A program made the position numbers and the translations under genes. DNA of 64,000 nucleotides from Ustilago trichophora (taxonomy: Eukaryota > Basidiomycota > Ustilaginomycetes > Ustilaginales > Ustilaginaceae): positions 434,001-498,000 of the forward strand of contig OOIN01000017.1 of assembly GCA_900323505.1 (NCBI GenBank), given 5' to 3'. The notes below the pieces were generated by a model. The model was given only the letters and a program-made list of their open reading frames with translations, made no database searches and had not been told where the DNA came from. Below, one piece after another: positions 39,801 through 57,979 of the stretch; within the stretch, counting starts at the first letter, position 1; each line of letters begins with the position of its first letter.

Positions 39801-40035
39801 TCTGCAGAAACACCCTGCATAAGGAAATTCACATCATAGACACTTTTGCACAAAAGCATGTTCAGCGCCACACCACGGACAATACCATCACACACACACA
39901 CGCACATATAGGTGATCTTTCGGGTGTAACACTTTCCCATGACATTTCTGTTTCTAGACAAGGAGGCAGGACGGCATAAAGTACGTCTTGCTATCCACTT
40001 CGATCGCCATTTTGATGGTGGTGGAGAAGATTGCT
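39801..40035. other. Convergent 3' intergenic region
   Basis: 235 bp between the ends of the SET gene and the aquaporin gene, with a short CA tract. No gene seen. Confidence 0.4.
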
Positions 40036-41223
40036 CTAGAAGTTCTTGACGCTGAGGTTGGTCCTCTTTTTCTGGAGGGCGCTGGCGTCGCCACCCCTGC
40101 TGATGGTTTGGGCGATCTTCTGGTCGAGCATCTCGGCGTGAAGGGTCTCTGCGCGTTCGATCGACTTTACGTGTTCCTCGTGCATGTGGTTGAGTGCCAC
40201 AGTGGCAGGGGGACGTCTGGTGTCGCTAAGGAAGAAGGTGTAGATACCGCATCCGATCAAGGTTGCGGGGATGTTGGTGAGTGCGGCCAAAGCGGTGTAT
40301 CCAGACGGGAAGCACTCTGAGCCCCAGAACATTCCGCAGACAAACCTGGCACCCAAATCCCTAGCAGAGTTGGCGGCGACGTTGGAAGACGAGAAACACC
40401 AGACAACGACGGCGAAACCGAGGCCAATGGTGTAAGGAGCGACCTGAGGACCAGTGAAAGGGTTGGCAGCGTCCAAGTTGGCCCATACGATCATGGCAAC
40501 GAGGATATCGGCGAAGAACTCGTTGACAAAGATCGATCCGAGCGAACGACCAGGGGTGGGGAAAAGTGCAATGACACCTGCGGGTCCTTCAGCGGTGAAA
40601 ATGGTAGCACCCTTGCCAGTAGCCCTGAGAAGATGGGTGATCTTCATCAATTCATCGTGCCACGAACCGACGACGATGAGCGAGGCAACCATAGCACCGA
40701 CGATCTGAGCGCAGATGTAGAGCGGGGCGAGTTTGATTGGGAAACCTTTGAAGACGACCTGAGCGATGGTGAAGGCAGGGTGGAATTGACCACCAGAAGT
40801 GGTGGCGCAGACGACAATAGCAAAAGTGATACCGAAAGCGTAGGCGAAACCGATCATAGTTAAGTTACCCTGAGGAGAACCTCCGTAGGTGGTAATCAAG
40901 AATCCAGCGGTGGCCATTTCACCAGCGAGACAGTAGAACATGGTTCCGAAAAACTCGGCGATCAGAGCGGGAATGAGGCGGGGCATGGCTTGCTCCAGTC
41001 GAACTCGACCGGACCAGTCGGCCAGACCGGAGGAGGTGGCTACATGACGCTGGACATCGGAACGACCTTCGAGGATTTCGGTGACACCAAGTTCGAGTTC
41101 GCCATTCTTGCGGTGAGCACGCTGGAAATGGTGAGACGAGGCGGAGTTGGCATCCTTGTCAGAGGTGTCGTGGGTGAGTTGGTCGGCTGGGATGTAGCTG
41201 GGTGTTTGGGCGGGTTGCGACAT
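40036..41223 (-). CDS. Aquaporin/aquaglyceroporin-like channel with altered NPA boxes
   Basis: 395 residues from the ATG at 41223. An N-terminal cytosolic part of about 80 residues precedes six membrane segments of the MIP fold. The first half-helix is GGQFHPAFT, so HPA (148-150) replaces NPA. The second is AANSARDLGAR, so NSA (285-287) replaces NPA while the conserved Arg remains. Family members conduct water, glycerol or other small neutral solutes across the plasma membrane. The altered boxes suggest changed selectivity, which is inference. The long C-terminal tail is charged. A TATAAAG element lies about 135 bp upstream. Confidence 0.9.
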   Translation of the reverse strand: MSQPAQTPSYIPADQLTHDTSDKDANSASSHHFQRAHRKNGELELGVTEILEGRSDVQRHVATSSGLADWSGRVRLEQAMPRLIPALIAEFFGTMFYCLAGEMATAGFLITTYGGSPQGNLTMIGFAYAFGITFAIVVCATTSGGQFHPAFTIAQVVFKGFPIKLAPLYICAQIVGAMVASLIVVGSWHDELMKITHLLRATGKGATIFTAEGPAGVIALFPTPGRSLGSIFVNEFFADILVAMIVWANLDAANPFTGPQVAPYTIGLGFAVVVWCFSSSNVAANSARDLGARFVCGMFWGSECFPSGYTALAALTNIPATLIGCGIYTFFLSDTRRPPATVALNHMHEEHVKSIERAETLHAEMLDQKIAQTISRGGDASALQKKRTNLSVKNF

Positions 41224-41353
41224 GATAGGCGACCTGTTGACTCCCGGAGTGGAGTGTTCTAGGAAGGGGGAGGGAGTGGAGGCGGGAAGCTGGTGAGAGG
41301 GGAGGGTTCAAGCTGAAGAGGAGTATGCTTGATGTACAACGAACCAGGTCGTC

Positions 41354-41360
41354 CTTTATA
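41354..41360 (-). promoter_or_regulatory. Candidate TATA box of the aquaporin gene
   Basis: TATAAAG on the minus strand, about 130 bp upstream of the ATG at 41223. Confidence 0.45.
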
Positions 41361-41740
41361 TGCCTATCCTCGAAGTGCTGGGCAGGTGTCCTACAAGGGA
41401 GGGGAAAAGTGTAGCAATGAGGATAGAGTTACTGCAAGAGAGTGGCCTGGGATGATCATCCGTTTGGGGCAGTTGCCAAGGCTCTAGGTGGCGTGGGTTG
41501 GAACCTTTGCCCCGTTCTGACTGTCCAACTCATCTCGTTTCATCTCATCCCATCCCATCCCATCATCAGACGACGGAAGTGGACGACTGATGAAGCGCCT
41601 GTCGCGGGAACCTTGTCCCCACCCATTGCGCATCTCTATGCATATAGGAAAGGTGGGTAAACCATGTCAAAAAAAAAAAAAACAGACTCGTGGGAGTCAC
41701 AACCCAAACCAATGCATCAAAACCCCACATGATCTCGTTC

Positions 41741-41744
<4 letters not shown>

Positions 41745-41775
<31 letters not shown>
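41745..41775. repeat. (CT)n microsatellite, 31 bp
   Basis: Perfect dinucleotide tract in noncoding DNA. Confidence 0.9.
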
Positions 41776-41778
<3 letters not shown>

Positions 41779-44587
41779 CGGGCACAGGGTGTGTGGGGCA
41801 GCTGATCAATTGCTAATGTATGACTGTAAGGAACGCTCTCTCTTTTGCTTGGGACCCCGCAAATTGGCGTGGTTTGGCAAATGTGTACAGTATGGTGCGG
41901 GGTAATACGACATGCATCTGCTGTGCGAGTTTTGGCCCTGCATTGTCTTGGTGAAGCGCGGGGTACATGATGACAGTTTGGCTGCAGCGTGGGCAAGTCG
42001 TAGTTGGACGAAGGTCATCAACGATTCACAGATGCGTAACGAGAGAGGGGGTGGAAAAAGCATTGCCGCGGAAAGCCCATCATGACACATCTGAGCCAGG
42101 GTGTGGGTTGACAGCATCGCCCACACGCATAACTCTGCCGGAGAAGGCACACAACCCCGAGATGAGTGACAAAACCGCAACCAAGGAGAAACAGAGAGGG
42201 AGAGATGACAGCAACCAAACGTTTGTTACTGTTTCGGTATACTGTATGGTGCCTTAAGCGAAAACCAGAGATGCATGAGATGGGCGCGTGGCTTGAACCA
42301 CAAAGAGAAAGAGAGAGAGGAGAAATAAAGAGGCGCGGCTGGTCGGAGCCATGCCAACCGTGGGCCCGGCGAAAAGGCCAAAAAGGTGGGAAATTCAAAA
42401 ATGAATAAAACGTAAAACAAATAGCCGCGGGAGGATCACAGAGCCTCCGGTTATCCATCCGACCGCCGTCTCCCCGTCTTTTGCTCCTTCCTTCTCTTTT
42501 GATCAGGCAAGCGGAGTGGCAAGTAATGTCTGTGTGTGTGTGTGTGTTGGCTGAGATCGAATCGTCAAGAGGGACGGATTGTCTGTTCCGCCCGCCAGGA
42601 ACTACTCGAACCCTTTTCTTCGTGTTTTGATGTCACTCCTACTTTGATGGTTAGCAACGAGCTAGAGTCAGCGTGTGTGCAAAGCAAAACGAACCGTAAA
42701 ATTGCGGACCTTCCTCATCCAACTTGAAAAAGCTTCAGTGTCCTGCAAACCGTGAGCTTGGGCAAGAGTCTGTTTGGCGAGGCGGAAAATTTGAACAGAG
42801 CAACACAGGCAGAGTTTCTGCGCGAGGGAGGGAGAGAAAGACCAACCGGTGTATTCGGCAACGCTTCATTGCTATGATTGGTTGCCGAGCCCGAGCCTCT
42901 ATTCACCACCACACATTTCTCCACTCTTCCTGGTTTGCCTCGTCAAAAGTTGCTTTGTCTTTCCCTCAATCTGAGACTTCACCTGTGCCCACTTTGCAAC
43001 TGAGCCAATCGAAGAGATTTCACAAAAACAATCAAGCTCATAGATGGATGATGAGTCAAAGATCACCTTGTACGACAGGAGCTTTTTGTATTACGGCACA
43101 AGAGAGCCGAAAATGCACTATGCGCCAAGAAGTTCAAGCCTCGAAACAAGAATGTGCACGTCGATGGAGGTTGCGGTGGTTTGCTGCTGCTTGCTGCACA
43201 TGGATGCAGCAAGATGTTGTGTTGCAGGATTTGTGTATGTGTGTCACTGTTCCGGTCATCGCCACGTTGACTCTGGCTTCCGGTTTTGGGTATTCGGGCG
43301 GTGGTGGAGAGATCCGTTGTGGTCCCAATTTCCACTTGTGGACAGTCCAAGGAAATGATCTGGTGCTAATTGACGATCCTCTCCATGTGGTCACGCTAGC
43401 AAGGGAGTAAGCGATCACAACAAGGCAAGGAAAGGAGCAAGTGTGAGGATTTGTTCTCCAACGGAAAAGTTACTCTGCATCGTCAAAGAGGATCATGCTA
43501 CCGAATACTTTAGCACTTCCGGCAAGAGGGTGAGGTATACCGACCGGCATCATTGATCTCTGAGCCGGAGTCTTTGTACAGCTTTGCATAAGAACTTCTT
43601 TCTCTCATTTCAGGCACCGAGGAGACAAAAAAAAAAGAAGAGATGATCACGCGCGGCATGTTGGACGTGGGGGGATGATACAACGGCACGGCGAGGAGCG
43701 GCGGGCGGAGATCCAAATTTATCCCTCTCTTCGTTTTTGTTTTGCGGAGCTCCACTGCCGGCCGCCGGAGACACTTTCCTTTTCTCTCTCGTCACACTCT
43801 TGTTCTGAGATCAAAAGGGCTTCACCGTAGGCGATGGAGAAAAAGAATGGTGTGGGTTTCTCTCTCAGCTCCGCGGCCCTTTTTTTTGGCCCTTCTGACC
43901 CTCAGACTAATCGGATTCATCTCGCTCGGCAAGGAATCCCGTGCAAACCATTCCCCGCATCCACTACTCTTCATCGACACTCCTGCCGTCGTTGTACAAA
44001 AGTCATCCCACGAAGCAATATAACTGTTTGATCACATCCCAACAGCACTAATGCAGCCTCACCGCAACACACATACGCTCACGGAGACTCCTCCACACAT
44101 GGTTCCTGAATGAGTCGAGGGCCAGAACCCATCCGCCTCGGTTAGCTAGTTGGACCCAGCTCGTGGCATCCTTAGCATTCTTTTTGTGTGGGGTGAGCTA
44201 ATCAGCGTCAAGCGTGCTGGTTTGGCCATCCGATCTACTTAGCCCTTGTCTTGGTACAAACTCTGAGCCAGTGTTGATCAGTGCTTCAGAGATGCTTAGC
44301 CTTTCGAAATGGAATGGTTGGTTCGCATAGTGGTCATGTGGTATAAGCCGCGACCTTTTCTAGTTATTTTTGTGTTCCCGATTTCGCTTCATATTTTTTT
44401 CCTCTCATTATTTTTCCCCCTCACATCAAGCCAATCATTCGTCGACCTCCTTAGTCTGACAGAATCCACCATCAAACCTTGCCTGCCTGGCAATAAGTGC
44501 CGCTGCCAGAAATAAGATTCTCAAAGAGAAGCAAGACAGTCCCCCGATGCCAAAACAAGTAAAAAAAAAACGATGGGAAAAAACAGC

Positions 44588-44593
44588 AAAAAA
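44588..44593 (-). terminator. RNA polymerase III terminator of tRNA-Ser
   Basis: Six T on the minus strand, starting 15 bases after the tRNA 3' end. This is the expected pol III stop signal. Confidence 0.75.
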
Positions 44594-44607
44594 TAACCCG
44601 TAATTGT

Positions 44608-44721
44608 CGACACCCGTCGGATTTGAACCGACGCAGGCAGAGCCTATAAGTTAACTCGTCACAATGGGACGATCGAAAGCAATATTCGAGACTTACCCCT
44701 TAACCACTCGGGCAGAGTGCC
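44608..44721 (-). tRNA. tRNA-Ser(CGA) with a 32-base intron
   Basis: 114 bases, 82 after intron removal. The acceptor stem GGCACTC pairs with GGGTGTC (two G-T pairs), followed by discriminator G typical of Ser. The D arm is GCCCGAGTGGTTAAGGGG. The anticodon stem TAAGT/ACTTA encloses loop CTCGAAA with anticodon CGA. A type II variable arm has stem GGC/GCC, and the T arm is GTCGG-TTCAAAT-CCGAC. The intron follows position 37, the standard site, and contains TCG able to pair with the anticodon. CCA is not encoded. It reads UCG serine codons. Confidence 0.95.
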
Positions 44722-45039
44722 TTGATGGCTAATTCGCCTCGATATTGCATTCATAATTCACTTTCTTAATTTATAGAAATTTTTTTTAGTCAACAGCATG
44801 GCCATCTCGACAATCTCGACACATCTGCTCCCAAGAGTACATCATGAAGCCCATGCTGGGAAGTCATAGGGATCGAGATGATCAGTAGGGGCCAAAACTC
44901 GGTGGGATACGAATGCAAGCTCGACACAGCCTGTGTGATGGTGACAAGAGAGCAGCTTTATTGGTGAGATCGAAGCAAATCGTGGTGGCCGACAATCTCG
45001 AAGAATCGAATACAATCACTGCTCTAGACCAGATGGGAC
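44722..45039. other. Spacer between tRNA-Ser and the kinase gene
   Basis: 318 bp, AT-rich near 44745-44790, probably containing the 3' UTR of the kinase gene. No gene seen. Confidence 0.45.
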
Positions 45040-46407
45040 CTACTCCAACGCGCGCAAAGCAGCTTGTGTCAATTCGATGACCTGATCGATATCCGGTCTC
45101 TCCTCAGGTTTGACCTGGATGCAACGCTTGATCACCTCCCGAGTCTTTTCCGAGTATGGATCCTCTCCACCGCTCGGCATCTTGTACGACCCGTTCAGCA
45201 CGGCCAGTGCAATACTGCCACCCTGCTCAATGGTCTGTGTCGTCTCGAAGGGCGAGTGCAGGTACGCAAGGGCATACAGCAGACAGCCGAGAGACCAAAT
45301 GTCCACAGCCTCGGTGAGAGTTGTATCTGTCGGCACATCAAACAGTTCTGGCGCGCGGTAGGGCATGGAGGAGCGTTCTGCGGCCATATCCTGGTGTGCT
45401 ACTGCCTGTTTGCGGTTCTTGATGTGGACACGGGCTTTGATGGTGCTGCCAAAGTCCATGAGGATGGGAGTCTTTCCATCGTCGGCGACCATGACGTTGC
45501 CCGGTTTGATGTCGCGATGCGCGTAGGGGAGGTGCTCACCTACGCTACCCGACTCGACACCGCCGTCGAGAGCTGTTTGGGTGACGCTGTCCGAGTCAAG
45601 GCCGAAATCGCGCCCTTTGCCCTTGTTCGGTTTGGGTGGGTAGGACGAATTATCGGCACCCTCGTCGTCCTCATTGTGTTGGTTCGAGATGAGTGATGTT
45701 TCCTCACCGTTGCCGAGCGCTGCTTGCGAGTCAGCAAAGGGGTCTTGCGGTGGGGTGACTTCCATCCGCGGTATCGGTGCTGAGCCTGCGCTTCGGCGCG
45801 TAACTCCTACGTTAGGCAGTCGGTAGTGGTGCATCTCTCGAACAGCTTTACATGTCCCAAGGAAGAGCTGCAGCATCTCGCGCTCTCCGAACCTTGTTCC
45901 TCGTACGACATGTGCATTGATCGCATCCTGCAGATTGCCCTTTTCGTAAAATGGCAAAAACAGGTAGATCACTTTCCCACCATCTCCTCCTCTTCCACCA
46001 GCACCATCCGGATCACTCGAAGGCAAGTTGCCGAACAGCGTACCCGATCCAGCATCATCTTGCACCACACAGCTGTCGTAGATCGGAATGATATGCGGCG
46101 AGCGGAACCGTTTTGTCGCCTCAATCTCCTTCATCGCCTCCTGGAACGAATCGGCGCCGTACGAGGAGCATCGAATCTTCTTCAACGCGAAGAAGCGTCC
46201 CGAGTTCTGATCCTTGACGAGGTATACAAAGCTGAACCCGCCTTCGCCGAGAAGTTTGACGATTTGGAAGTTGCGTCCGTTGAGTTTGAGCACCGATGTC
46301 TCGGGTGTGCAGGGAAGACATGATGACAGCGCAAAGATGGCATCCTGTGCCCGCTCGAAGAGGCTTCCGAGCAGCCCTGATGCCGAAGAGGACTGGATGG
46401 AGGGCAT
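45040..46407 (-). CDS. ENV7/STK16-like (NAK family) serine/threonine kinase
   Basis: 455 residues from the ATG at 46407. CLPC at 30-33 is the likely palmitoylation site that anchors this family to the vacuole or Golgi membrane. The glycine loop is GEGGFSFVY (54-62), the VAIK-type lysine is in FALKKIRC, the catalytic loop is HRDIKPGN (about 297-304) and the magnesium loop is DFGST. APELFDV and SLGCLLYALAYLHSPF close the domain, typical of NAK kinases. An acidic, low-complexity insertion of about 90 residues lies between the lobes, as in many fungal homologues. Yeast Env7 regulates vacuole membrane fusion. Its upstream region is interrupted by the retrotransposon 267 bp from the ATG. Confidence 0.88.
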   Translation of the reverse strand: MPSIQSSSASGLLGSLFERAQDAIFALSSCLPCTPETSVLKLNGRNFQIVKLLGEGGFSFVYLVKDQNSGRFFALKKIRCSSYGADSFQEAMKEIEATKRFRSPHIIPIYDSCVVQDDAGSGTLFGNLPSSDPDGAGGRGGDGGKVIYLFLPFYEKGNLQDAINAHVVRGTRFGEREMLQLFLGTCKAVREMHHYRLPNVGVTRRSAGSAPIPRMEVTPPQDPFADSQAALGNGEETSLISNQHNEDDEGADNSSYPPKPNKGKGRDFGLDSDSVTQTALDGGVESGSVGEHLPYAHRDIKPGNVMVADDGKTPILMDFGSTIKARVHIKNRKQAVAHQDMAAERSSMPYRAPELFDVPTDTTLTEAVDIWSLGCLLYALAYLHSPFETTQTIEQGGSIALAVLNGSYKMPSGGEDPYSEKTREVIKRCIQVKPEERPDIDQVIELTQAALRALE

Positions 46408-46673
46408 TGTGTGCTGTACTGCGGAAGAACAGCAGCGATTGTATTCAGAGCAACAGGTGAGGTCGTGTTGGTCCGCGTGTGCTCGTGTGTGGATGAGAGA
46501 GAAGGGTAGATTAGATCAACACTTGAGCGTTTGCCAGAAGTGTTGGAATCGGAGCCAAGAGCTTCGCGTGCAGCTTGGCCGATACAGTAAAATCGGGCTG
46601 CTTCTTGGTGTGTGTGCATGCAACCGAGTGGCTGTACTGTACAGCTGGAAGCGACGCACATTTCTAGGGTTTG
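46408..46673. other. Residual kinase promoter between ATG and retrotransposon
   Basis: 266 bp containing the inverted repeat GCTGTAC-T-GTACAGC (46631-46645), a copy of the recurrent motif, and at its right end one copy of the target duplication. Confidence 0.5.
46669..46673. repeat. Target-site duplication, left copy (GTTTG)
   Basis: Five bases GTTTG abut the left LTR and are repeated at 52688-52692 directly after the right LTR, as expected for a copia integrase. Confidence 0.85.
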
Positions 46674-46884
46674 TATTAAGTTATTGTCGCAACTGAGATT
46701 CAAATTACTGAAGTGGATCAGGGGAGCCATATATATACATGTGCAAAGTTGCACCAAATTGGCTATTGCTGTTGGAGCGAAGTCGTTGGCTTGTGCATCG
46801 GGGAAATAAGTCGGGGAAACACATCGGGGAAACATTATTTTTAGAACATTTTTATCGAACCTTTTTGAGACTGGGAAACTAACA
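46674..46884 (-). repeat. 3' LTR, 211 bp
   Basis: On the minus strand it starts TGTTAG and ends TTAATA. It contains a TATATATA box (46729-46739) and three copies of CGGGGAAA. Compared with the other LTR it has A at 46720 and 46745 and T at 46750, each a CpG transition. Confidence 0.95.
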
Positions 46885-46895
46885 CTCCCCCTTTT
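46885..46895 (-). other. Polypurine tract
   Basis: AAAAGGGGGAG on the minus strand directly abuts the 3' LTR, the expected primer for plus-strand DNA synthesis. Confidence 0.85.
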
Positions 46896-47002
46896 GAGGA
46901 AAATGTTGTGAGTGCGACATCGGACATATCAAACTGGTATCGTAGCAGTGAATTCAGTGGGGGGGGATTATGGAACGGGACTGTTGAAGTCCTTTCTTAC
47001 AG

Positions 47003-47797
47003 TTACTCGTCCTCTTCGAGGACAGGACCAAATACAGCATCCATCATTTCCGACAAGGTTGCAAAGTTTCGAGTCTTGCCGTCGACATGCGTGAAGTCCA
47101 CCCAGCGGACATTTTCGAGTTCGGTGATAATGGCATCCTTGAGTCCTTCGAATTCGTCGACGTGTGCGGTGTAGATTGTCTTGAGTAGGATGAATTGGTT
47201 TTGAGATAGTTCTCGGAGACGGTGAACCTCATCTCGAAGAGATTCCACTTGACGAGTGAGTGTGCCGACGTTGTTGTTGAGAGAATGAACGGATTGGAGG
47301 ATGGCAGTGTCTTCGGCGCGCAAACGGCGGAAGCCAGTGGTGACTTCGGTGCGTAGTGCAGAACGCTGTCCACGGTTGAAGGCTTGCTCGATCAACATAC
47401 GCCTGTGGTTAATGGAGCGCCTCGAGTAGTCATTGGAGCATTTGCGCTTACGAACATAGCACCTGTAACACTTTTGGGAGCAAAGCCCATGCTTGACCTC
47501 CAGAGCATACTGGCAAACATAATTGAACCTTGAGCACGTATCACAGGGTGTGTATATTTCCACCGCATTGTCCAGTTGTTCCTCTATGCCTAGTTCTTCC
47601 TCCAGCTCGTCGACTTCCTCCAATTCGTCATCAGCTTGTGCATCGACTTCGTCGTCATCGTTGATTAGTGCGCCTATGTCGAAACCTAGTTCAAAATCAT
47701 CATCGCTATCGTTGTTGTTGGTTGGGGGGTGTTGGCTTGGGTCGGGAGGTGGGAATTCGACCCAAACATTATCCTGACTGTTACCAATTTCGCTCAT
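47003..47797 (-). CDS. Retrotransposon accessory protein: Zn2Cys6-like cluster plus coiled coil
   Basis: 264 residues from the ATG at 47797 (context ACC ATG A); the frame also has an upstream ATG at 47995. It lies inside the element, downstream of pol and on the same strand. Residues 30-80 are strongly acidic. Cysteines at 85, 88, 95, 110, 113 and 120 form C-x2-C-x6-C-x14-C-x2-C-x6-C, plus an extra C106, close to the fungal Zn2Cys6 binuclear cluster. The second half, CYRCYVRKRKC, is basic. Residues 160-205 have heptad leucines and charged residues typical of a coiled coil. Sequence-specific DNA binding as a dimer is inference. A TATA-like element lies about 80 bp upstream, suggesting its own promoter. 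Copia elements do not normally carry such a gene. Confidence 0.8.
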   Translation of the reverse strand: MSEIGNSQDNVWVEFPPPDPSQHPPTNNNDSDDDFELGFDIGALINDDDEVDAQADDELEEVDELEEELGIEEQLDNAVEIYTPCDTCSRFNYVCQYALEVKHGLCSQKCYRCYVRKRKCSNDYSRRSINHRRMLIEQAFNRGQRSALRTEVTTGFRRLRAEDTAILQSVHSLNNNVGTLTRQVESLRDEVHRLRELSQNQFILLKTIYTAHVDEFEGLKDAIITELENVRWVDFTHVDGKTRNFATLSEMMDAVFGPVLEEDE

Positions 47798-48283
47798 GGT
47801 TGGAGTTGTGAGCGTAATGTTGTGTTTGCTTGGGAGCTTGAGTCTCCCATCATCTCTGGACGACTTCGGTGCTTGTTTTATATCTTCACTGCACCAACTT
47901 CTCCATTGCAAATATTTTCTCGTTGGTCGTTGTCGTCCTGTAGCGAGCCTGGGGTCTGGGCTCCTCGACTGAGTGTCATCATCCTTCTTCTGCACACTCT
48001 TTTTCTTTTAACGAATCACGGGCGATTGCACCAGTGACTTCGTCCTATCTTTCTCTTACAGCCGTGAGTGACATCATACATGCTGATGCCGCTCCGAATG
48101 TAACCCTATCTTGTCACCACCACCCCAAATATAAGCTTTTAACTTTATCTTGGTCCGAGATTGTCCCTACCCTTTTTCCTCGTCCGAGCTTCCTCCTAAG
48201 TTTGACTTCGCGGCGCAACTCAAATCTTGTACCGCCTAAGTCCGTGCTCTGCGCCTTTTTCCTTTTATCTTCGTCGCCGGCAG
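47798..48283. other. Spacer between pol and the accessory gene
   Basis: About 490 bp within the retrotransposon. It holds the TATA-like element and the longer reading-frame extension up to 47995; otherwise no protein is recognised. Confidence 0.5.
47873..47885 (-). promoter_or_regulatory. Candidate internal promoter of the accessory gene
   Basis: GATATAAAAC on the minus strand, 76-88 bp upstream of the ATG at 47797. It would place transcription start inside the frame that begins at 47995, favouring the shorter protein. Confidence 0.4.
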
Positions 48284-51200
48284 TTAATGCATGTTGAGCA
48301 TCCGCCTGCCTTCTTCCGCCTTGTTTGGGCCCAACATTTTCGTTAGGCAGTCAGCTTTCTGCTGCAGTGTTGTCACGGGCACAATCTTTACTTTGTTATT
48401 GCCCACATGTTCTCGAATGAAGTGGAATTTCACGTCTATGTGTTTTGTGCGACTGTGAAATTTGGGATCTGCAGCAAGTTGTCTAGCTGCAGCGTTGTCG
48501 ACGTGAATGTTGGTGGGACTGTACTGTCGAAGTCCCAGCTCGTCCAGTAAGCTGCGAGTCCAAATTATGTCCTTTACTGACTCTGTCATGGCAATGTATT
48601 CGGCGACTGTGGTTGAGTCGGCGACTAACGGCTGTTTCTTTGAAAACCAGTTCACCGGTGAACCATATACAATCGTTACAATGCCCGTCGTTGATTTTCG
48701 ATCTTGTGTGTCCCCGGCGAAGTCAGCGTCACTGTATCCTTCTAACACAGTCGACGTCGTCATTCCTTTTGTGAAGTGGATACCAACGTTCTGAGTTCCT
48801 TTGAGGTACCGTAGGAGGTGCATTGCGCTTTTCATTGATGCCTGGGTTGGATTTTCCAGGTGCTTGCTGAGTCGACTGGTGGCGTAGCTGATGTCAGGCC
48901 TCGTGCCCGTCGATGCATACAGTAGTGACCCCACAATCATGCGATACTTCTTGTGGTCTTGTTCATTTAATGGTTCGACGTCGCTGTCAAATTCTTTTAA
49001 CGGTAGCGGCGTTGTCGCTGGTTTTGCACTTTCGACCAGGAACTTGTCGACCATTTGCCGGATGTATGCTGATTGGCTTAACTTTGTACTATCTGTATTC
49101 CATGTAATTTCCAGTCCAAGTATATACTTTAGTTTCCCTCCTTCTGTCATCTTGAATCGCCTGGTTAACTCTCTCTTGTATTTGTCCATGTCTTCCTGAG
49201 TACGAGTGACCAGGACTATATCATCAACATATACGGCAATTATGCACAGCAACTTCGCTAATGTTCCTATCTTGTATACTCCGAAGTCGCTGGCAATCCT
49301 AGTGAAGCCCATGTCATGCAGACTTTCATCGAGCCTTTCGTACCACTTTCTTCCAGCTTGTTTGAGGCCGTATAATGCCTTCTTGAGTTTCAATGTTTTC
49401 CCTTCCCAGTATCCAGGGGGTGGTTTCATAAAGATATCTTCGGTGATTACGCCGTTCAGGAACGCGGTGACAACGTCCATTTGCTCCATCTTCAGTCCTA
49501 GTGATGTCGCTAGTGCAATTAATATCCTGAGGGTGGAAAACTTGAGTACGGGAGCGAACGTTTCCTCGTAGTCGATACCTTCTCGCTGTGTAAAACCCCT
49601 TGCCACGAGTCTGGCTTTGTATTTGTCCAATGATCCATCTGGGTTAATTTTTAGTTTATAAACCCACTTACAGTCGACAACGTGGCCATCACTGGTGGGT
49701 TTACTAGTGACTTCCCACGTGCCATTTTCACGGTGACTTTCCAATTCCTTATCCATCGCCTCCTTCCACTTGTTCCAATCCTTGCGCTTCTGTGCTTCCT
49801 GGAGTGTGAGGGGGTCTTGCTCTGGTCTAGGGGTAGCGGCGAATTCGACTTGAGTAGTGAGGTTCGCAAGTTCGACTTCACTGATGTCGCCTTCTCCCCC
49901 TGGTCCAATACTTGTCTCTTCTTCATTGCTTTCTTCCAGGGTTGTGGTGGTTATCACCTCTTGGGCATTAGGAGGTTGGACTTCCTTTCGTTTGGCAGGA
50001 AAGTCCGTTTCAACAAAGGTGATGTCCCTGCTTATCCTTTTGTTGAGGAGGCTGAGGTTGACCACTTCATAGGCCTTACGTCCGTATGAAATTCCTAAGT
50101 TTATCATCTTGGTACTCCTGGGTTCCAGCTTTGACTTCCTTTCTGCTTCCTGAATGTGGACATAGGCTGTGCACCCAAACGGTCGAATGTCTTGTATAGT
50201 TGCTTTCTCACCAAGGAATAGTTCCAGCGGCGAAGTCGTTGGTCCGGTCCACTCGTTCGGTACGCGATTTCGTACATAGATTGCATGCATTGCCGCCTTG
50301 GTCCAAAATTGTCCAGGCAGCCCGGATTCGTAGAGCATGCACCTAACCATGTCCATGACAGTCCTGTTCATCCTTTCAGCTATACCATTTTGTTGAGGTG
50401 TGTATGGAGCCGTCCTTCTGTGTACAATGCCCCGACGTCGCATGTAGTCATCCATCTCTTTATTAACGAATTCACCGCCATTGTCACTGAGCAGCATACT
50501 GAGTTTCTTCCCAGTTCGCCCTTCCATGTGGATTGAGTAAAAGTAGAAGGCCGTGGCTACCTTGTCCTTCGTTTCAATTGGAACACCTGTTACGTGCCTT
50601 GAGAAGTCATCAACAAAGGTGACCATGTACCTCTTTCCGTCGATGTCTGTTTCGTAAGGTCCGACGACGTCAGAGTGGACGAGTTCCAGGGGTCTCGTCG
50701 ACCTCGTCACCGACCTATGAAATGGATTCCTTGTATGTTTTCCGACTTCGCATGTTTCGCATTGAATTCTCTTTGCGAGGTCGCTCGGTAATTTTTCTTT
50801 CGTTGCCACTTCTATGGCTTCCTTGACTGACTTCGTATTAATGTGGCCAAGCCTGCGATGCCAGGCTTCGATATCGTTGTTCTTGATTATCGCCAAGTTT
50901 GCGGCCTTGTATTGGATAGTGTGTCCCTTCAATATCAGACTGTTTCCTTCATATTTGCATTGTAGGACCTTCTTTCCGTTTGCAGTGACTTCTGCGGCGG
51001 TCAGTTTGTTGTCGACAGTGAAGTTGATGTTGGCTGCCTTCACAAGATTTACAAGAGACAGCAGGTTTGCCGAAAGCTTTGGTACATATAGTACTCGTTT
51101 GAATACTACGTTTTCGCCTCGTTTGCCATCGATGATGGGTGCGAATTCGACCTGCCCTATTCCTTCTACTTTCAGGACATCGCCAGTCGCAGTCCTGATT

Positions 51201-52405
51201 CTTAAGTATGATTCTCCTTTAACGAGTTTACTGAAGTATTCTAGCCTGTTCGTCATGTGCGAAGAGGCACCAGAGTCAAGTATCCAATGATCATTTATAC
51301 TGTGACTTCGGCCAGCTAGTAGGGATGATTCGTCAGCGACTTCAGCGACTACTTGTGCTGCACATCCCCACACGTCCGGCTCTTCATTTTGTTCCCTATT
51401 TTTGTTGTTTGACGTGTTCGGCATTTGGTTGTCATTTTCTTCAGTCGCGGCGTTAGCGACTTCCTTGCGTTGGAAAGGTCGGTTTCCGTTTGAAGTCGCG
51501 GCACTTTGTTTGCAGTGTCTTGCAAGGTGTCCAACCTTATTGCAGTTGTAACATTTCTTTCCACACAGTGCTGCTATGTGTCCAATCCTTCCGCATTTGA
51601 AACAGGCGCCTTTGGATCCAGTAGACTGTTCCCCATTGAGATTATGTTTGGTATTGCAATGTCGCTGCCCGCCATGTGGTTGTCTATTAGCTGACATTGC
51701 CATCTCTATTTTGGAGCTATCCTTCGCCTTGACTGTCTGGTTGAGCTCCTCCTCCCAAGCCTTTAGGGTCCTCAGCGCATCATTGTATCTTTCTATTTCG
51801 TCCAGCTCGTTGAGCCCTTGAGTGACTGTGTGCTGTTTTCCATCGGCATCAGTATACGTAATTTCCTTCTTGATGAGTTTCCGGTATGTGTCATTTTCTC
51901 GCATTAGCATTGCCTTGTATACTCCGTACTCAGGGCAAAGTCCCTGCACTAGCGCTTTCATTCGTCTGTCGACATCGGTCTTGTATCCAGCAGCGTCGAG
52001 TTGTTCGCAGATCTTTGCAATCCTGGCAGAGTAGGGGTCGATTCCCTCTCCTTCCTTCTGTTTGATTGTGTTAAGCTGTGTCTGTAACATTTCCACTCGG
52101 AGACTTACATGCTCCTCAAAATGGCCCTGAAGTCGCTGCCACATCTCCATGGGTGTTGGCAGCGACTTCACCAGGTGCCTATATTCCTGTCCAATTGCTT
52201 GAAGAATGAATCCTTTTGCCTTGATGTCTGCCTCCATCCATTCTTCTCGAGCCCGTGCCGTAACTTCAGGCATGCCCTGCGTCATACATATATAGACCTT
52301 TCCTTTGGCCATCATGGCCGCCGTGAAGTCGTCCTTCCAGGTGAAGTAGTCATCCACCGACTTCAGCCTGGGGATACCAATGAGACTTGCTTCCTTGTCC
52401 ATCAT
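48284..52405 (-). CDS. Copia gag-pol polyprotein
   Basis: 1,373 residues in one intact frame from the ATG at 52405. Gag (about 1-330) has UBN2-type sequence and two zinc knuckles, CFKCGRIGHIAALC (CX2CX4HX4C) and CYNCNKVGHLARHC. The protease motif is LDSGASSH (about 374-381). Integrase shows the HHCC zinc site (WHRRLGHIN then CETC), and the D-D-E core in HSDVVG, LSDNGGEF and NGIAERMNRT. Reverse transcriptase has KARLVARGFTQREG and the active site YVDDIVL (about 1064-1070). RNase H ends with SDADFAGD and a typical copia tail, TKHIDVKFHFIRE. No frameshift separates gag and pol, as in many copia elements. Activity is not shown but no key residue is missing. Confidence 0.97.
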   Translation of the reverse strand: MMDKEASLIGIPRLKSVDDYFTWKDDFTAAMMAKGKVYICMTQGMPEVTARAREEWMEADIKAKGFILQAIGQEYRHLVKSLPTPMEMWQRLQGHFEEHVSLRVEMLQTQLNTIKQKEGEGIDPYSARIAKICEQLDAAGYKTDVDRRMKALVQGLCPEYGVYKAMLMRENDTYRKLIKKEITYTDADGKQHTVTQGLNELDEIERYNDALRTLKAWEEELNQTVKAKDSSKIEMAMSANRQPHGGQRHCNTKHNLNGEQSTGSKGACFKCGRIGHIAALCGKKCYNCNKVGHLARHCKQSAATSNGNRPFQRKEVANAATEENDNQMPNTSNNKNREQNEEPDVWGCAAQVVAEVADESSLLAGRSHSINDHWILDSGASSHMTNRLEYFSKLVKGESYLRIRTATGDVLKVEGIGQVEFAPIIDGKRGENVVFKRVLYVPKLSANLLSLVNLVKAANINFTVDNKLTAAEVTANGKKVLQCKYEGNSLILKGHTIQYKAANLAIIKNNDIEAWHRRLGHINTKSVKEAIEVATKEKLPSDLAKRIQCETCEVGKHTRNPFHRSVTRSTRPLELVHSDVVGPYETDIDGKRYMVTFVDDFSRHVTGVPIETKDKVATAFYFYSIHMEGRTGKKLSMLLSDNGGEFVNKEMDDYMRRRGIVHRRTAPYTPQQNGIAERMNRTVMDMVRCMLYESGLPGQFWTKAAMHAIYVRNRVPNEWTGPTTSPLELFLGEKATIQDIRPFGCTAYVHIQEAERKSKLEPRSTKMINLGISYGRKAYEVVNLSLLNKRISRDITFVETDFPAKRKEVQPPNAQEVITTTTLEESNEEETSIGPGGEGDISEVELANLTTQVEFAATPRPEQDPLTLQEAQKRKDWNKWKEAMDKELESHRENGTWEVTSKPTSDGHVVDCKWVYKLKINPDGSLDKYKARLVARGFTQREGIDYEETFAPVLKFSTLRILIALATSLGLKMEQMDVVTAFLNGVITEDIFMKPPPGYWEGKTLKLKKALYGLKQAGRKWYERLDESLHDMGFTRIASDFGVYKIGTLAKLLCIIAVYVDDIVLVTRTQEDMDKYKRELTRRFKMTEGGKLKYILGLEITWNTDSTKLSQSAYIRQMVDKFLVESAKPATTPLPLKEFDSDVEPLNEQDHKKYRMIVGSLLYASTGTRPDISYATSRLSKHLENPTQASMKSAMHLLRYLKGTQNVGIHFTKGMTTSTVLEGYSDADFAGDTQDRKSTTGIVTIVYGSPVNWFSKKQPLVADSTTVAEYIAMTESVKDIIWTRSLLDELGLRQYSPTNIHVDNAAARQLAADPKFHSRTKHIDVKFHFIREHVGNNKVKIVPVTTLQQKADCLTKMLGPNKAEEGRRMLNMH

Positions 52406-52464
52406 TGTTTGTCTTCGATTCTAGTGTTAGCTTCTTACTTACTGTATGCAGGGGAGTGCAACTT

Positions 52465-52476
52465 GGGCTCATAACC
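52465..52476 (-). other. Primer-binding site of the half-tRNA type
   Basis: Directly inside the 5' LTR. The plus strand reads GGGCTCATAACC, identical to the anticodon arm of eukaryotic initiator tRNA-Met, so the element RNA (GGTTATGAGCCC) pairs with that loop. This is the priming mode known for Ty5 and Drosophila copia. Confidence 0.8.
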
Positions 52477-52687
52477 TATTAAGTTATTGTCGCAACTGAG
52501 ATTCAAATTACTGAAGTGGATCGGGGGAGCCATATATATACATGTGCGAAGTCGCACCAAATTGGCTATTGCTGTTGGAGCGAAGTCGTTGGCTTGTGCA
52601 TCGGGGAAATAAGTCGGGGAAACACATCGGGGAAACATTATTTTTAGAACATTTTTATCGAACCTTTTTGAGACTGGGAAACTAACA
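52477..52687 (-). repeat. 5' LTR, 211 bp
   Basis: Same length and ends as the left copy. It retains CpG at the three variable positions (corresponding bases 52523, 52548 and 52553). Confidence 0.95.
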
Positions 52688-52692
52688 GTTTG
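52688..52692. repeat. Target-site duplication, right copy (GTTTG)
   Basis: Pairs with 46669-46673. Confidence 0.85.
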
Positions 52693-52825
52693 CGTATCTG
52701 CTCCTCGGAAGACAGAAAGAAAGCGCGTCGATTTTGGTTGGCACGGACCAGCCGCGGCCGCTATCCGGACGAGAAGGACAAGACCCTTGCGTTTTGCCCC
52801 ACAAAGCCATGTGAACGCACAAGGT

Positions 52826-52834
52826 TTATATAGC
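52826..52834 (+). promoter_or_regulatory. TATA box of the alpha/beta hydrolase gene
   Basis: TTTATATAG about 90 bp upstream of the ATG at 52924, outside the retrotransposon, so the core promoter survived the insertion. Confidence 0.5.
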
Positions 52835-52923
52835 CGCTCCCTTCTTCACCTCTTCTTCGCCTTCTTCCACACTCTCATCACCTAGAGCTTCTCTACCTTT
52901 CATCGAAAGCATTGCACTCGGAG

Positions 52924-53868
52924 ATGCGCACGATCAGCTTCGAATTCGCCAAGCGCGAGGTCCCGATCCTCCTCGACCTTTGCCTTCCCGACACCGCCTC
53001 ATCCACCCCACTCCCCATCTTTATCTGGTGGCATGGCGGCGGCCTCATCCAAGGCGCCCGTCAAGCCATGGCTGGTCATCTCAAGCGTGCCGTCGACAAA
53101 TACAACATTGCTGTTGTATCCACCGACTACCGTCTCGCCCCTCAGGTCCGCGTACCCGATATCCAGCAGGACATGGACGACTGTTTCGCTTACGTCGTCG
53201 ACAAGCTTCCCTCCGAGCTCGCTGCCAAGGGCGAGACCGCCAAGCTGGACACGGACAGGATTGTGCTGAGTGGATCCAGTGCCGGGGGATGGCAATGTTT
53301 GATGCTTGGACTGGGTATGTGTCCAAACACAAAGAAGGAACATCTGAAGAAGGTCAAAGGTATCGCTGCTATTTACCCGATTACAACCATGGACCACCCT
53401 TTCTTCCTCGAGAAACAGACACCTTTCATGGGCATGCTCAAGGACAATCCCGACTCGTTTGCTGAATTCCGCGACCCAGAAGCCCCAGTCACGGCAAACA
53501 CTGCGGCAGTGGCACACAGGCAAAAGTTCTACATGCACGCTCAACAGGAGGCACTCTTCCCCTCGCTGCTCTTCTCGCAACAGCAGAGAGATGGCGGCTG
53601 GCTGCAAAAGACCGACGTAGTGACTTTCTTAAGAGGAACTTCTGAGGAACAGAGGAAAGCATTTCCACCTGTCTACATCGTGCACGGCGAAAAGGACACT
53701 GCTGTAGATGTGGATCATTCGAGAAGACTCGAAAAGGCGCTCAAGGAGGCAGGAACGCCGGTTGTCTACGACGAGGTGCCTGGCAGAGACCATCTGTGGG
53801 ACCAGCTCGAACCAGAGGAGAATCTGGAGGCGCTCTGGAAGTTTTCGATTGAGAAACTTCGCGCGTAG
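52924..53868 (+). CDS. Alpha/beta hydrolase (fold-3, HGGG-type lipase/esterase)
   Basis: 314 residues from the ATG at 52924 (MRTISFEFAK). The oxyanion-hole motif WWHGGGLIQG is near 38-47. STDYRLAPQ follows, and the nucleophile elbow is GSSAGG (GxSxG). The catalytic Asp is likely in HGEKDTAVD and His in GRDHLWDQ, both in the expected C-terminal order. The HGGG class corresponds to the hormone-sensitive lipase/carboxylesterase group and also includes arylformamidase-like and detoxifying esterases. Cytosolic, since no signal peptide is seen. Substrate not predictable. The retrotransposon ends 236 bp upstream of its start. Confidence 0.9.
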   Translation: MRTISFEFAKREVPILLDLCLPDTASSTPLPIFIWWHGGGLIQGARQAMAGHLKRAVDKYNIAVVSTDYRLAPQVRVPDIQQDMDDCFAYVVDKLPSELAAKGETAKLDTDRIVLSGSSAGGWQCLMLGLGMCPNTKKEHLKKVKGIAAIYPITTMDHPFFLEKQTPFMGMLKDNPDSFAEFRDPEAPVTANTAAVAHRQKFYMHAQQEALFPSLLFSQQQRDGGWLQKTDVVTFLRGTSEEQRKAFPPVYIVHGEKDTAVDVDHSRRLEKALKEAGTPVVYDEVPGRDHLWDQLEPEENLEALWKFSIEKLRA

Positions 53869-54126
53869 ATAAGAGATTGATTTGTACAACACACTCATGC
53901 AATGCGATAAGGTAAGGCAGCTGTTCGAAACTGCTTTTCCCGGGGCATACCGATCGGACGGTGTCGATGAACTTGAATGAATGAGCATCTCGAGACGTGG
54001 TGGTCCAGTTCGATTAGTGGAGGGGTATCTGAGGAGCAAGACAAGTAGCACTACACATTCCAATATGAGATTCCGTTCGAAGGCCGAGCCAGTCGATATC
54101 GATGCCAATCTAAGAGTTCAATCCGT
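53869..54126. other. Convergent 3' intergenic region
   Basis: About 260 bp between the hydrolase and the DUF202 gene. No gene seen. Confidence 0.4.
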
Positions 54127-54746
54127 CTAGACTCGAAGAATGAGCACCAGCAATGCGATCTCGACCAAGCCCACGAACGCGGTTGCCGCGGCGACTACCG
54201 ATCCGGCAGTGACAAAGCTCTCGCGAAGTACCGTCCCAACGGGTGCTGGTGTGTGGTTGACTGGGCTAGGATCCGCATCGCCTGGTTGTGAGAGATGCTG
54301 CGTCTGGTCTGACTGCGTTTTCGGGGAGGGCTGAGCTAGGTCTTGTGACGGCTGTTGTGGCTCGACCACTTCCATAGCTACTACGCGCTCAGCGTTGCTG
54401 ACTGCCATTCGGTAACGGAAGATGGCTACAGGTATAAAGCCCATGCCGAGAACCGCATAGACGAGGCCTGCATGATGCAAGTGTCAAGGGCGACGCAAGG
54501 TCCGATCAGAAAGTTGCTCACGGGCGCAACGTTCATGGTACAAGCTGTGCGAGACTCACCGATATAGAAGAACTTGGGTTGAAAAAGGCGGAGAATGACG
54601 ATAGCATAGCATAGCTGACCAAGTGCCGTCCTTGCATAGGCTCCGTCGAAGGTTCTTTGAACAGCTCGGTAGTCAAGAAGGTCACGCTGGCTAAGCTTGA
54701 TGACATTCGCCCGGGGCGGAATTACTCCCGTTTCTGGTGTCGCCAT
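54127..54746 (-). CDS. DUF202 membrane protein, two exons
   Basis: Exons 54746-54560 and 54467-54127 (92-bp intron, GTGAGT...CAG) give 175 residues. Splicing joins KFFYIG to LVYAVLGMGFIPVAIFRYR. The order RTFDGAYARTALGQL, hydrophobic helix, then FIPVAIFRYR is the DUF202 signature of small fungal and bacterial membrane proteins. A hydrophilic Gln/Pro-rich loop of about 45 residues follows, then a C-terminal membrane segment. The family includes vacuolar membrane proteins of unknown function (VTC-like DUF202). Topology is predicted only by hydrophobicity. Confidence 0.85.
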
Positions 54747-55995
54747 GACCTCAAGTCTGTTGCCGTTCCGTATCCTTGATGATCAGAGGTTGAGGATGCA
54801 GGTAGTGGTCGTCGCAGTGAAGAGCGTTTCATGGCAAGAAACCGCTACTATGTGTGCAAAGGAGCAGATGGTGCGTGCGAGAGGCACAGGATTGCGCCAA
54901 ATTGGACATCGATCGAGATACCTCGCCATCGAGAAGCCCGATCCGACTTTCCCCATTTTTGCGACGAACGAGATTCACTTCAAAGCCACGCAAGCTCTGC
55001 AAAAGCTTTCTTTGAGTGCAAGCATCTGGCACCGCCTCTGCAGCTTGGCTGGAATCTCGAGCTCTGAATGTCTTACCTGCACGCCCCAACTGGGGCCAAC
55101 GTCCGTCTATCCACATGGCGTGAACAAAAATCGGCCCGACTGAACCAAGCTAGAGATGCATGATTCTCACGTAGATAAGCTGCAGCCTCGGCTTCCCACA
55201 TGACCCCAGCACGAAGAGCTCAAAGACAGCATACGGCGACGACTGCCACTGTCTCTCAGCCGGGAGAATTCGCCGACCTATCGTGGAAGAATTGCCCCGA
55301 CGTGAGGCGTAGCTCGTGATTTGGTTCTCGCTAATTGAGCTAACATGCGCGGACCAGTCCTGGCTTCCCTCGATTCGCTTCGCCTGTGTCTCTGATTCCG
55401 CTGCCGAGAAGACGCATCGATGCAAACACTTCAAGCCACCAAACTCATCTTTGCTTTGGAAAGGTGTGGGAGTGCGTGCTCGCTTGCGCATGAATGGATC
55501 TGCTGCCCGTGACTGCGTTCCACTTGAGTTACTCCATACCCCAACCTGTGCGTCACGCCTGAGAGGTTCGCTTGACGCTTTTATCCGCTTCTCCTTGCAT
55601 CTCGCTCCGTTCGAGGCGTCTGCATGCACAATTGCAAACCCTGAGCTTGTTACGCCACGCCGCTGCTGATGAGCTAACTCGCGTAGCGGCTTTGTATGAT
55701 TCTGTTCAGCTTGCCGTGAGGAGAGCTCCTTGAGGGTGCATAATGCAGATGTTGATGCGACGACGTTGCCGGTCCGTCCAAAGCCTGCGGCTAGAGATGC
55801 AGATTCGAGACTGGATCAGTGGCCGGTCTCAAGGGCCACTCCCGCCCTTTGCTCTGCGTCCCTTGGGCTCATCTCTTCTCAGCCCTGTATTCTCGTCTCT
55901 ACTTCCATCATCTATGCATCAACCCTGACCTCCAACACACCGAAAGACAGAGGGCGGCCAATGTCATCCCTGGCCGTCACAGCGACCTTTCGAGG
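54747..55995. other. 1.25-kb divergent intergenic region
   Basis: Upstream DNA of the DUF202 and F-box-like genes. Frames at 55150-55629 (minus) and 55316-55669 (plus) overlap each other and lack recognisable features. No gene is called. Confidence 0.45.
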
Positions 55996-57495: not shown

Positions 57496-57979
57496 TCAGC
57501 ACTGTATCGATCACAATATAACCTCAACTAGCTCCGACGAATGTCACATGTACTATGATATTAATTGCATTGATCCAATTTACTGGTTAACAATCGCATG
57601 GGTCGAGGAGAGTGATGCAGAGATGAAAGCCTCCGCTTTCGATTCTCTTGGCGTGGGAACGTCAAAAGCAGTCAGCATGCGGAGAGATGACAAAGTTGAC
57701 CGTCAGATGACCGTGTGCCAGTTTCATTGTAAGCCGAGGCTGGGATTTGTAAGGGGTGGTGAGGGAATCTGGGGTGATTGTGTCGAGAGAGCGTGAATAT
57801 TCGGCAAAGCCGATAGTCACACGAGGTGGAATAACAGCAGTGAGGTCGATGGCCAATGCAAAATTCTCACGTTGCTTGGGACGTGCGCCTTTGCCGATGA
57901 CTTCCATAACTGCGGCAGTCACACGCAAGCAACACCATCGGCTCCTCTCCAGGATCACCGGAAAAGCATCGGCGCAACG
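57496..57979. other. Spacer between the F-box-like and RCC1 genes
   Basis: 484 bp. An open frame on the minus strand (57662-57958) has no recognised content. Otherwise promoter DNA. Confidence 0.4.

Follow-up and report, generated by a model that had tools for sequence, protein, structure and literature searches.

To our knowledge, few systems are known in which proteins encoded by transposable elements recognize their own family. In fungi, canonical Zn2Cys6 proteins carry the cysteine arrangement CX2CX6CX(5-12)CX2CX6-8C, with the basic half first, and read CGG triplets. VANDALs are Mutator-like DNA transposons. As far as the available text of the source goes, the sites of VANC, an antisilencing accessory protein of Arabidopsis VANDAL elements, have the sequence YAGTATTAY and are mainly noncoding, in one orientation, and often arranged as tandem repeats (PMC5735166). 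Bovine Tas, a foamy virus protein, binds both the LTR and an internal promoter, according to the accessible portion of the relevant report (PMC4929722). Here, we describe a copia retrotransposon in a 64,000-nucleotide stretch of DNA (the window) from the smut fungus Ustilago trichophora. The element resembles Ty1/copia (Pseudoviridae) in its LTRs, a gag-pol in one frame, integrase before reverse transcriptase (RT), a 5-bp target-site duplication (TSD), and a half-tRNA-like primer site. It departs from them in having a dispersed, paired word and, between pol and the 3′ LTR, one further gene on the sense strand.

The Window Harbors a Complete copia Element with an Additional Gene

A complete Ty1/copia element of U. 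trichophora, 6,014 bp long and the reference copy of what we term family A, occupies 46674-52687 of the minus strand of the window. Its features are as follows:

46674-52687, minus strand: Ty1/copia element, family A, 6,014 bp (LTR pair, copia Pfam domains, empty homeologous site)
46669-46673: left 5-bp target-site duplication, GTTTG (read from flanking sequence)
52688-52692: right 5-bp target-site duplication, GTTTG (read from flanking sequence)
52477-52687, minus strand: 5′ LTR, 211 bp, in which a GACTTC pair precedes the TATA (direct-repeat comparison)
52601-52634, minus strand: three TTCCCCGA repeats with a 13-bp period in the 5′ LTR, upstream of the GACTTC sites and TATA (sequence reading)
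52533-52540, minus strand: TATA of the 5′ LTR (sequence reading)
52465-52476, minus strand: primer binding site GGTTATGAGCCC (read from sequence)
48284-52405, minus strand: gag-pol, 1,373 amino acids, with copia gag, CCHC, pre-integrase, integrase, and RVT_2 domains (Pfam)
47876-47882, minus strand: TATAAAA upstream of the accessory gene (sequence reading)
47003-47797, minus strand: accessory gene, 264 amino acids, with an ATG start and no internal stop (ORF list, genome search, pN/pS)
46885-46895, minus strand: polypurine tract AAAAGGGGGAG (read from sequence)
46674-46884, minus strand: 3′ LTR, 211 bp (direct-repeat comparison)

The assignment to Ty1/copia follows from the Pfam matches, which place integrase upstream of RT (RVT_2) and identify a copia gag and a CCHC motif, together with the LTRs, the short TSD, and the empty site. 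The primer binding site GGTTATGAGCCC resembles what we take to be a half-tRNA-iMet primer (half of the initiator tRNA-Met). Within 40000-60000 of the window, the LTR pair is the only direct repeat of at least 40 nt, and the two LTRs differ at three bases, all of the C>T/G>A type. The three TTCCCCGA repeats recur in the 3′ LTR at 46798-46831; the LTR of the related family B (see below) has one TTCCCCGA, which runs into that LTR's GAAGTC. The element sits in the short gap between two divergent frames, one kinase-like and one hydrolase-like as named from their translations, with 46408-46668 and 52693-52911 remaining on either side. An initial annotation of this DNA had placed an intact 264-residue gene on the element's own strand, in the interval from pol to the 3′ LTR, with a TATA-like element some 80 bp upstream of its ATG that might allow independent expression; the gene and the TATA-like element are both present at the positions listed above.

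The Accessory Gene Is a Constant Component of a copia Lineage

When the accessory protein was searched against its own genome (E 0.001; match counts are lower bounds), at least 12 matches were found, seven of them full length at 97-100% identity and one of these seven with an internal TGA. The others comprise two fragments of a single split copy, on contig C44, and three relatives with 33-35% identity. In the split copy (C44:165419-175361; L037, L038), ∼9 kb of other sequence interrupts the gene. All seven full-length copies are flanked by LTR pairs, and 5-bp TSDs were found around all seven (flanks read by eye, with the split C44 copy set aside); at least eight family A elements were seen altogether. 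The homeologous locus on contig C15, 85% identical, lacks the element and retains a single target site that differs by one base. The empty locus and the TSDs around the copies indicate that the accessory gene arrived with the element. It is not a host gene of the window locus, and the possibility of a host gene lying beside an element, or of an ordinary host gene into which an element had recombined, is thereby ruled out.

Our assembly comprises 38.8 Mb and includes a second copy of the window region at 85% identity (for example, C16 and C15:409457-411502). The published U. trichophora genomes are 20.7 Mb in the available portions of the reports that describe them (PMC4966473; PMC8951962). Our assembly may be hybrid, diploid, or mixed.

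The three relatives at 33-35% identity define a second copia family, family B, which harbors its accessory gene at the same position in the element. The gene thus recurs in a second copia family within this genome and is neither restricted to one copy nor devoid of homologs. Family B comprises two tandem copies on contig C29 (L039, L040; repeat unit 6,349 bp) and one on C11, the latter with an insert within pol. The family B pol is 54% identical to that of family A (724 of 1,347 aligned residues; window copy versus C29 copy). A third family, C, has two copies with a pol that is 34% identical and aligns with that of family A over nearly its whole length; no accessory gene was found in it, the pol match ending only ∼160 bp short of the 3′ LTR.

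Among the seven family A copies, pN/pS is 0.22 for the accessory gene, 0.18 for pol, and 0.07 for accessory residues 81-125. By these values, the accessory gene is under purifying selection about as strong as that on pol, and its product is a protein kept by selection rather than debris. A chance ORF is ruled out by pN/pS and by conservation in the second family.

Protein database searches returned nothing but family members. The first recovered family members only, two U. trichophora records. The second added three more members: one U. trichophora record, which bears the UniRef name Zn(2)-C6 fungal-type, and two unnamed ENA proteins that are 65% and 37% identical to family B. The third, with an alignment of five sequences, yielded nothing new and did not relist P0006. 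Searched against its own genome at E 1, P0006 gave at least 11 matches, 11 of 11 lying within A or B copies. No host source outside element copies was found in the own genome at E 0.001 or, with P0006, at E 1; the protein searches that bear on this question include the two ENA proteins, whose genomic context is unassigned. Searches of viral contigs with the accessory protein alignment and with part of pol found no homologs. The suggestion that the gene is a captured host regulator is thus unsupported, with no match outside element copies in the own genome or among the protein search matches. Taken together, these data make the accessory gene a constant component of a copia lineage in this smut.

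Sequence and Predicted Structure of the Accessory Protein

The accessory protein is cysteine rich, acidic, and, as predicted, helical, and could bind DNA. Three regions can be distinguished:

47558-47716, minus strand: acidic stretch, residues 28-80, with 25 Asp/Glu and no Lys/Arg (residue count)
47438-47545, minus strand: cysteine stretch C85-C120, with six invariant cysteines (alignment)
47111-47428, minus strand: predicted long helix, residues 124-229, a probable coiled coil (AlphaFold)

The protein had been described as having an acidic N terminus, Zn2Cys6 spacing, and a coiled coil, like Gal4-type dimers. The acidic N terminus is confirmed by the composition of residues 28-80, 53 residues in all. 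The cysteines of the window copy, at 85, 88, 95, 110, 113, and 120, have the spacing CX2CX6CX14CX2CX6C, and the six are invariant throughout an alignment of five sequences that includes two A copies (CX2CX6CX13-14CX2CX6C). The six cysteines and the outer spacings fit Zn2Cys6, whereas the loop of 13-14 residues exceeds the canonical 5-12. Cys106 was considered as a seventh ligand and rejected, being private to the window copy and replaced by Arg in the other six full copies.

The Pfam profile Zn_clus (PF00172) scored below its gathering score of 21 bits: the best match, to an isolated 50-residue family A stretch, reached 15.3 bits (E 0.023), and the isolated 50-residue stretch of P0006 reached 14.9 bits (E 0.028), also below cutoff. 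The whole proteins P0001, P0002, and P0006 gave 8.1-9 bits, with P0004 and P0005 absent among the matches, and no Zn_clus match was obtained for the family B stretch or for any of six isolated half-stretches. In our reading of family A, the two halves look exchanged: the first cysteine triplet would fit the second half of the profile, and the basic residues belong to the second triplet. NCBIfam matches were far below cutoffs, the best being P0004 to HypA (E 0.0007, 19.8 bits versus a cutoff of 112), and a search against PDB sequences returned none at E 1.

AlphaFold models the family A protein with one long helix, residues 124-229, mostly at high confidence, which is consistent with the coiled coil described after the cysteines. 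The family B protein is modeled with several helices after the cysteines and, like that of family A, poorly around them. Both models are poor overall (pLDDT 64 and 53), and a Foldseek comparison with the PDB, in which the cysteine region entered at low confidence, gave no match at E 0.001. For the proposed Gal4-type fold, the six cysteines and the helix speak in favor, and the subthreshold Zn_clus scores, the absence of a fold match at E 0.001, and the low confidence of the cysteine region speak against. On the sequence evidence, a Zn2Cys6 cluster in this protein is plausible.

A Six-Letter Word Is Dispersed Through the Families That Carry the Gene

When all 6-mers were ranked by excess, GACTTC/GAAGTC came out on top in both family A and family B. 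The window element contains 31 copies, compared with 3.4 expected from first-order Markov shuffles (maximum 8 in 100), and the C11 copy of family B contains 40, compared with 4.9 (maximum 11 in 100); second-order expectations are 6.5 and 8.3, respectively. The C29 unit of family B (6,349 bp) contains 42 versus 8.0 expected. In density, the window element has 5.15 per kb, versus 0.52 per kb in the remaining window (30 copies). In both families the words lie on both strands and in coding and noncoding DNA along the whole element, and the flanks favor Y before and R after, which makes the word close to an inverted repeat, YGA..TCR. The related words GACATC, GACGTC, and GAATTC are mildly raised as well.

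Within the pol frames there are 20 sites in A and 29 in B, compared with 7.2 and 8.0 after synonymous-codon shuffling (maximum 14 and 14 in 200), and all six frame-and-strand classes of the word are used in both. Synonymous shuffling and the use of all six classes rule out codon usage or protein sequence as the cause. An RNA motif is unlikely, given the free orientation and one conserved site that is inverted. Five other copia stretches (family C, counted once, and L044-L047, of which L046 and L047 are partial) contain one to four GACTTC each, so that the word marks the families with an accessory gene (two of two versus none of five other copia stretches).

Family C has a dispersed word of its own, AGCGCA, with 27-28 copies compared with about 8.5 expected (L042 2053-6592; L043 2034-6571) and, in pol, 27 compared with 8.4 under synonymous shuffling; no clear spacing peak was found for AGCGCA in this family. 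Since family C has no accessory gene, dispersed words do not need one. Either dispersed words are a general copia habit here, read by host or pol proteins, or AGCGCA reflects something else.

The Sites Occur in Pairs About 34 bp Apart

In the window element, all six site pairs within 80 bp are spaced 33-35 bp, and in the C11 copy of family B six of nine are, the others being at 68, 72, and 74 bp. Six pairs at 33-35 bp arose in 0 of 100,000 random placements for A and in 7 of 100,000 for B; the distance was picked after it had been seen, but B repeats A except for pairs common by descent. One-mismatch partners peak at the same distance, summing to 11 (A) and 16 (B) across three offsets (mean 0.75 and 0.99 per offset), and one of those in B sits in its LTR directly upstream of the TATA. 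The pairs show all four combinations of orientation in A and three in B. Pooling the seven A copies gives 35 site places; nine pairs fall within 80 bp, all nine of them at 32-35 bp, and two among these represent one pair present in both LTRs. The C29 copy of family B has additional pairs at 24 and 26 bp. The pairs of the window element and the sites near its accessory TATA are as follows:

52548-52587, minus strand: GACTTC pair, 34 bp, directly upstream of the LTR TATA (sequence reading)
52325-52364, minus strand: pair, 34 bp, near the gag-pol start; both sites at the same place in family B (alignment)
52129-52169, minus strand: pair, 35 bp; one of two sites retained in family B (alignment)
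51458-51497, minus strand: pair, 34 bp; no aligned B sites, with a B pair 6 columns off in a poorly aligned stretch (alignment)
51304-51343, minus strand: pair, 34 bp; both sites retained in family B, one inverted (alignment)
47612-47650, minus strand: pair, 33 bp, within the accessory gene (sequence reading)
47862-47867, minus strand: GAAGTC on the gene side of the accessory TATA (sequence reading)
47896-47901, minus strand: one-mismatch partner GAAGTT, 34 bp from the GAAGTC at 47862-47867 (sequence reading)

Around the accessory TATA, the pair is exact in three other A copies (C5, C21, and C44); no exact pair at 34 bp surrounds the accessory TATA-like box of family B. We scanned the genome for exact pairs in the same-orientation and GAAGTC-GACTTC patterns, leaving GACTTC-GAAGTC aside and sorting places by eye. 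Same-orientation pairs occur at 45 places, 30 in A/B copies or LTR relics and 15 elsewhere (reversed-pattern control, 31), and GAAGTC-GACTTC pairs at 31 places, 20 in A/B copies and 11 elsewhere (control, 9).

The Word Is Retained Between Families A and B

When the pol codons of A (window) and B (C29) are aligned, 11 of the 20 A sites have a counterpart at the identical place in B, compared with 1.7 expected (P about 1e-9 if sites are independent). Ten are in the same orientation and one is in the opposite orientation, encoding Glu-Val versus Asp-Phe. For comparison, six-base windows, sites included, are identical between the two pol genes in 230 of 1,054 cases with unchanged residues and in 43 of 2,922 with differing ones; A sites are retained in seven of seven and four of 13 cases, respectively. 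Of the 27 6-mers found eight or more times in A, GACTTC is the most retained (0.55 versus a median of 0.11), and the next four overlap the word. This retention indicates that selection has acted on the word as DNA, irrespective of reading frame, and the one conserved site that is reversed between the families points to sites that act as double-stranded DNA.

C>T/G>A changes account for most of the differences among the seven aligned A copies; they are commonest at CpG, and at TCG in particular. At CpG, 122 of 603 C or G positions are variable, versus about 3% in other C contexts, and 74 of the 122 are at TCG. Outside the sites, 59 of 202 TCG positions are variable versus 48 of 368 other CpG positions. 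The GACTTC sites end in TCG when flanked by CpG, and no protection of the sites from CpG decay was detected, their CpGs decaying no more slowly than other TCG positions (15 of 33 site CpGs versus 59 of 202 other TCG, P = 0.07). The CpG/TCG decay shows a methylation- or RIP-like pressure on A copies, against which an anti-silencer would be useful.

A Possible Role in Reading the Element's Own Sites

The reading we tentatively favor, with a little less than even confidence, is that the accessory protein binds paired GACTTC sites, marks the element's DNA, and raises its transcription. The accessory product would be a small regulatory protein in which an acidic N terminus is followed by a knot of six cysteines that probably binds zinc and then by a long coiled coil. 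It would bind YGACTTCR words and work on pairs 34 ± 1 bp apart, with the element keeping such words on both strands along its whole length. Candidate bound pairs include one beside the LTR TATA and, in family A, also one around the accessory TATA. Binding would label the element's own DNA and boost transcription, by direct activation, exclusion of silent chromatin, or both. Spacing at 34 bp regardless of orientation is suggestive of a flexible dimer or tetramer bridging two sites, whose distance the long helix could set. Zinc binding, dimerization, the reading of these sites by the protein, and the effect of binding are parts that we infer. The earlier proposal that the gene is a regulator of the element gains support from the dispersed, paired GACTTC sites in both gene-carrying families, although the link between protein and sites stays conjectural. 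Several findings weigh against this reading: just two families, of common ancestry, carry the accessory gene; GACTTC contains no CGG triplet of the kind canonical Zn2Cys6 proteins read; the Zn_clus scores are below cutoff and the models poor; family C has a dispersed word but no accessory gene; family B lacks an exact pair at its accessory TATA-like box; and the sites are not spared from CpG decay.

A host DNA-binding protein might read the GACTTC pairs instead, with the element borrowing a host factor for activation, boundary formation, or replication and the accessory protein having a different task. The different dispersed word that family C retains without an accessory gene is in keeping with such a reader, as is the lack of a proven DNA-binding fold in the accessory protein. 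Outside the A/B copies and LTR relics, however, the genome shows no excess of exact pairs (15 and 11 places versus 31 and 9 in controls), and the word goes with the accessory gene in the copia stretches compared; we judge a host reader unlikely, if still a serious contender. A self-label read by Gag, integrase, or some other protein of the element during packaging or integration of double-stranded cDNA would account for sites along the entire element, in both orientations and retained between families. Yet the pol of family C, which lacks the GACTTC word, aligns with that of A nearly throughout, and no further DNA-binding domain besides the usual ones is above the Pfam cutoff in pol, making this the least probable of the readings considered.

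If the reader is indeed the accessory protein, it might act as a repressor that limits copy number through the LTR and its own promoter. The family A pair flanking the accessory TATA is positioned such that it could block it, and copy number is low (at least eight family A elements). However, the acidic stretch (25 of 53 residues) suits an activator better, and promoter repression does not need conserved sites across the entire body, so that repression seems very improbable. Alternatively, whatever reads the sites, the accessory protein could be an integration-targeting or cDNA-handling factor that tethers the preintegration complex to promoters and is unrelated to the GACTTC sites. For four of the seven family A copies, the insertion is upstream of an open frame (213-467 codons), 267-359 bp from its ATG, and the window copy lies between two divergent frames. 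The numbers are small, the genome is compact, and the frames are ORFs only; moreover, other copia elements here have no such gene and the site pattern would be left unexplained. We regard this role as improbable. Activation through the paired sites remains our preferred reading. A broader formulation, which we hold to be possible though somewhat doubtful, is that this retrotransposon lineage writes a self-recognition code in its own DNA through its coding frames, in the form of 34-bp pairs of a six-letter word in any orientation, selected as DNA since the families parted and read by an element-encoded protein.

Comparison with Known Systems

The six-cysteine region recalls the fungal Zn2Cys6 domain (Gal4-type, PF00172) in its CX2CX6C...CX2CX6C pattern, in the basic residues of one half, and in the predicted long helix that follows. 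It differs in its loop of 13-14 residues, in having the basic half second, in Pfam scores below cutoff, and in its putative association with GACTTC instead of CGG triplets. Foamy virus Tas (Bel-1) is likewise encoded toward the 3′ end of a retroelement, and the family A site pairs at the LTR TATA and accessory TATA extend the likeness, though Tas belongs to an animal virus and the element described here is a fungal copia element. We know of no lattice of sites through a foamy virus genome. Among the literature matches listed, no copia element with such a gene or such sites was apparent from titles and the beginnings of abstracts, subscription journals being mostly outside this coverage.

Were a protein of an LTR retrotransposon to read such sites, element regulation, escape from silencing, and protein coding would evolve on the same bases, with a self/nonself label overlapping the genes independently of reading frame. 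The site pattern alone could then find such systems in other genomes, and the 34-bp rule is precise enough for a test with one purified protein. A further likeness is to VANC of Arabidopsis VANDALs, which, in the available text, also combines an accessory protein encoded by the transposable element with a short word that is dense in its own family and rare elsewhere (PMC5735166). The GACTTC sites do not have the VANC-type arrangement of noncoding tandem repeats in one orientation; here, the element is a copia retrotransposon, and the sites lie also inside pol, in mixed orientations and in 34-bp pairs. Self-recognition by element-encoded proteins is thus known, and there is a fair chance that paired sites embedded in coding sequence have not yet been described.
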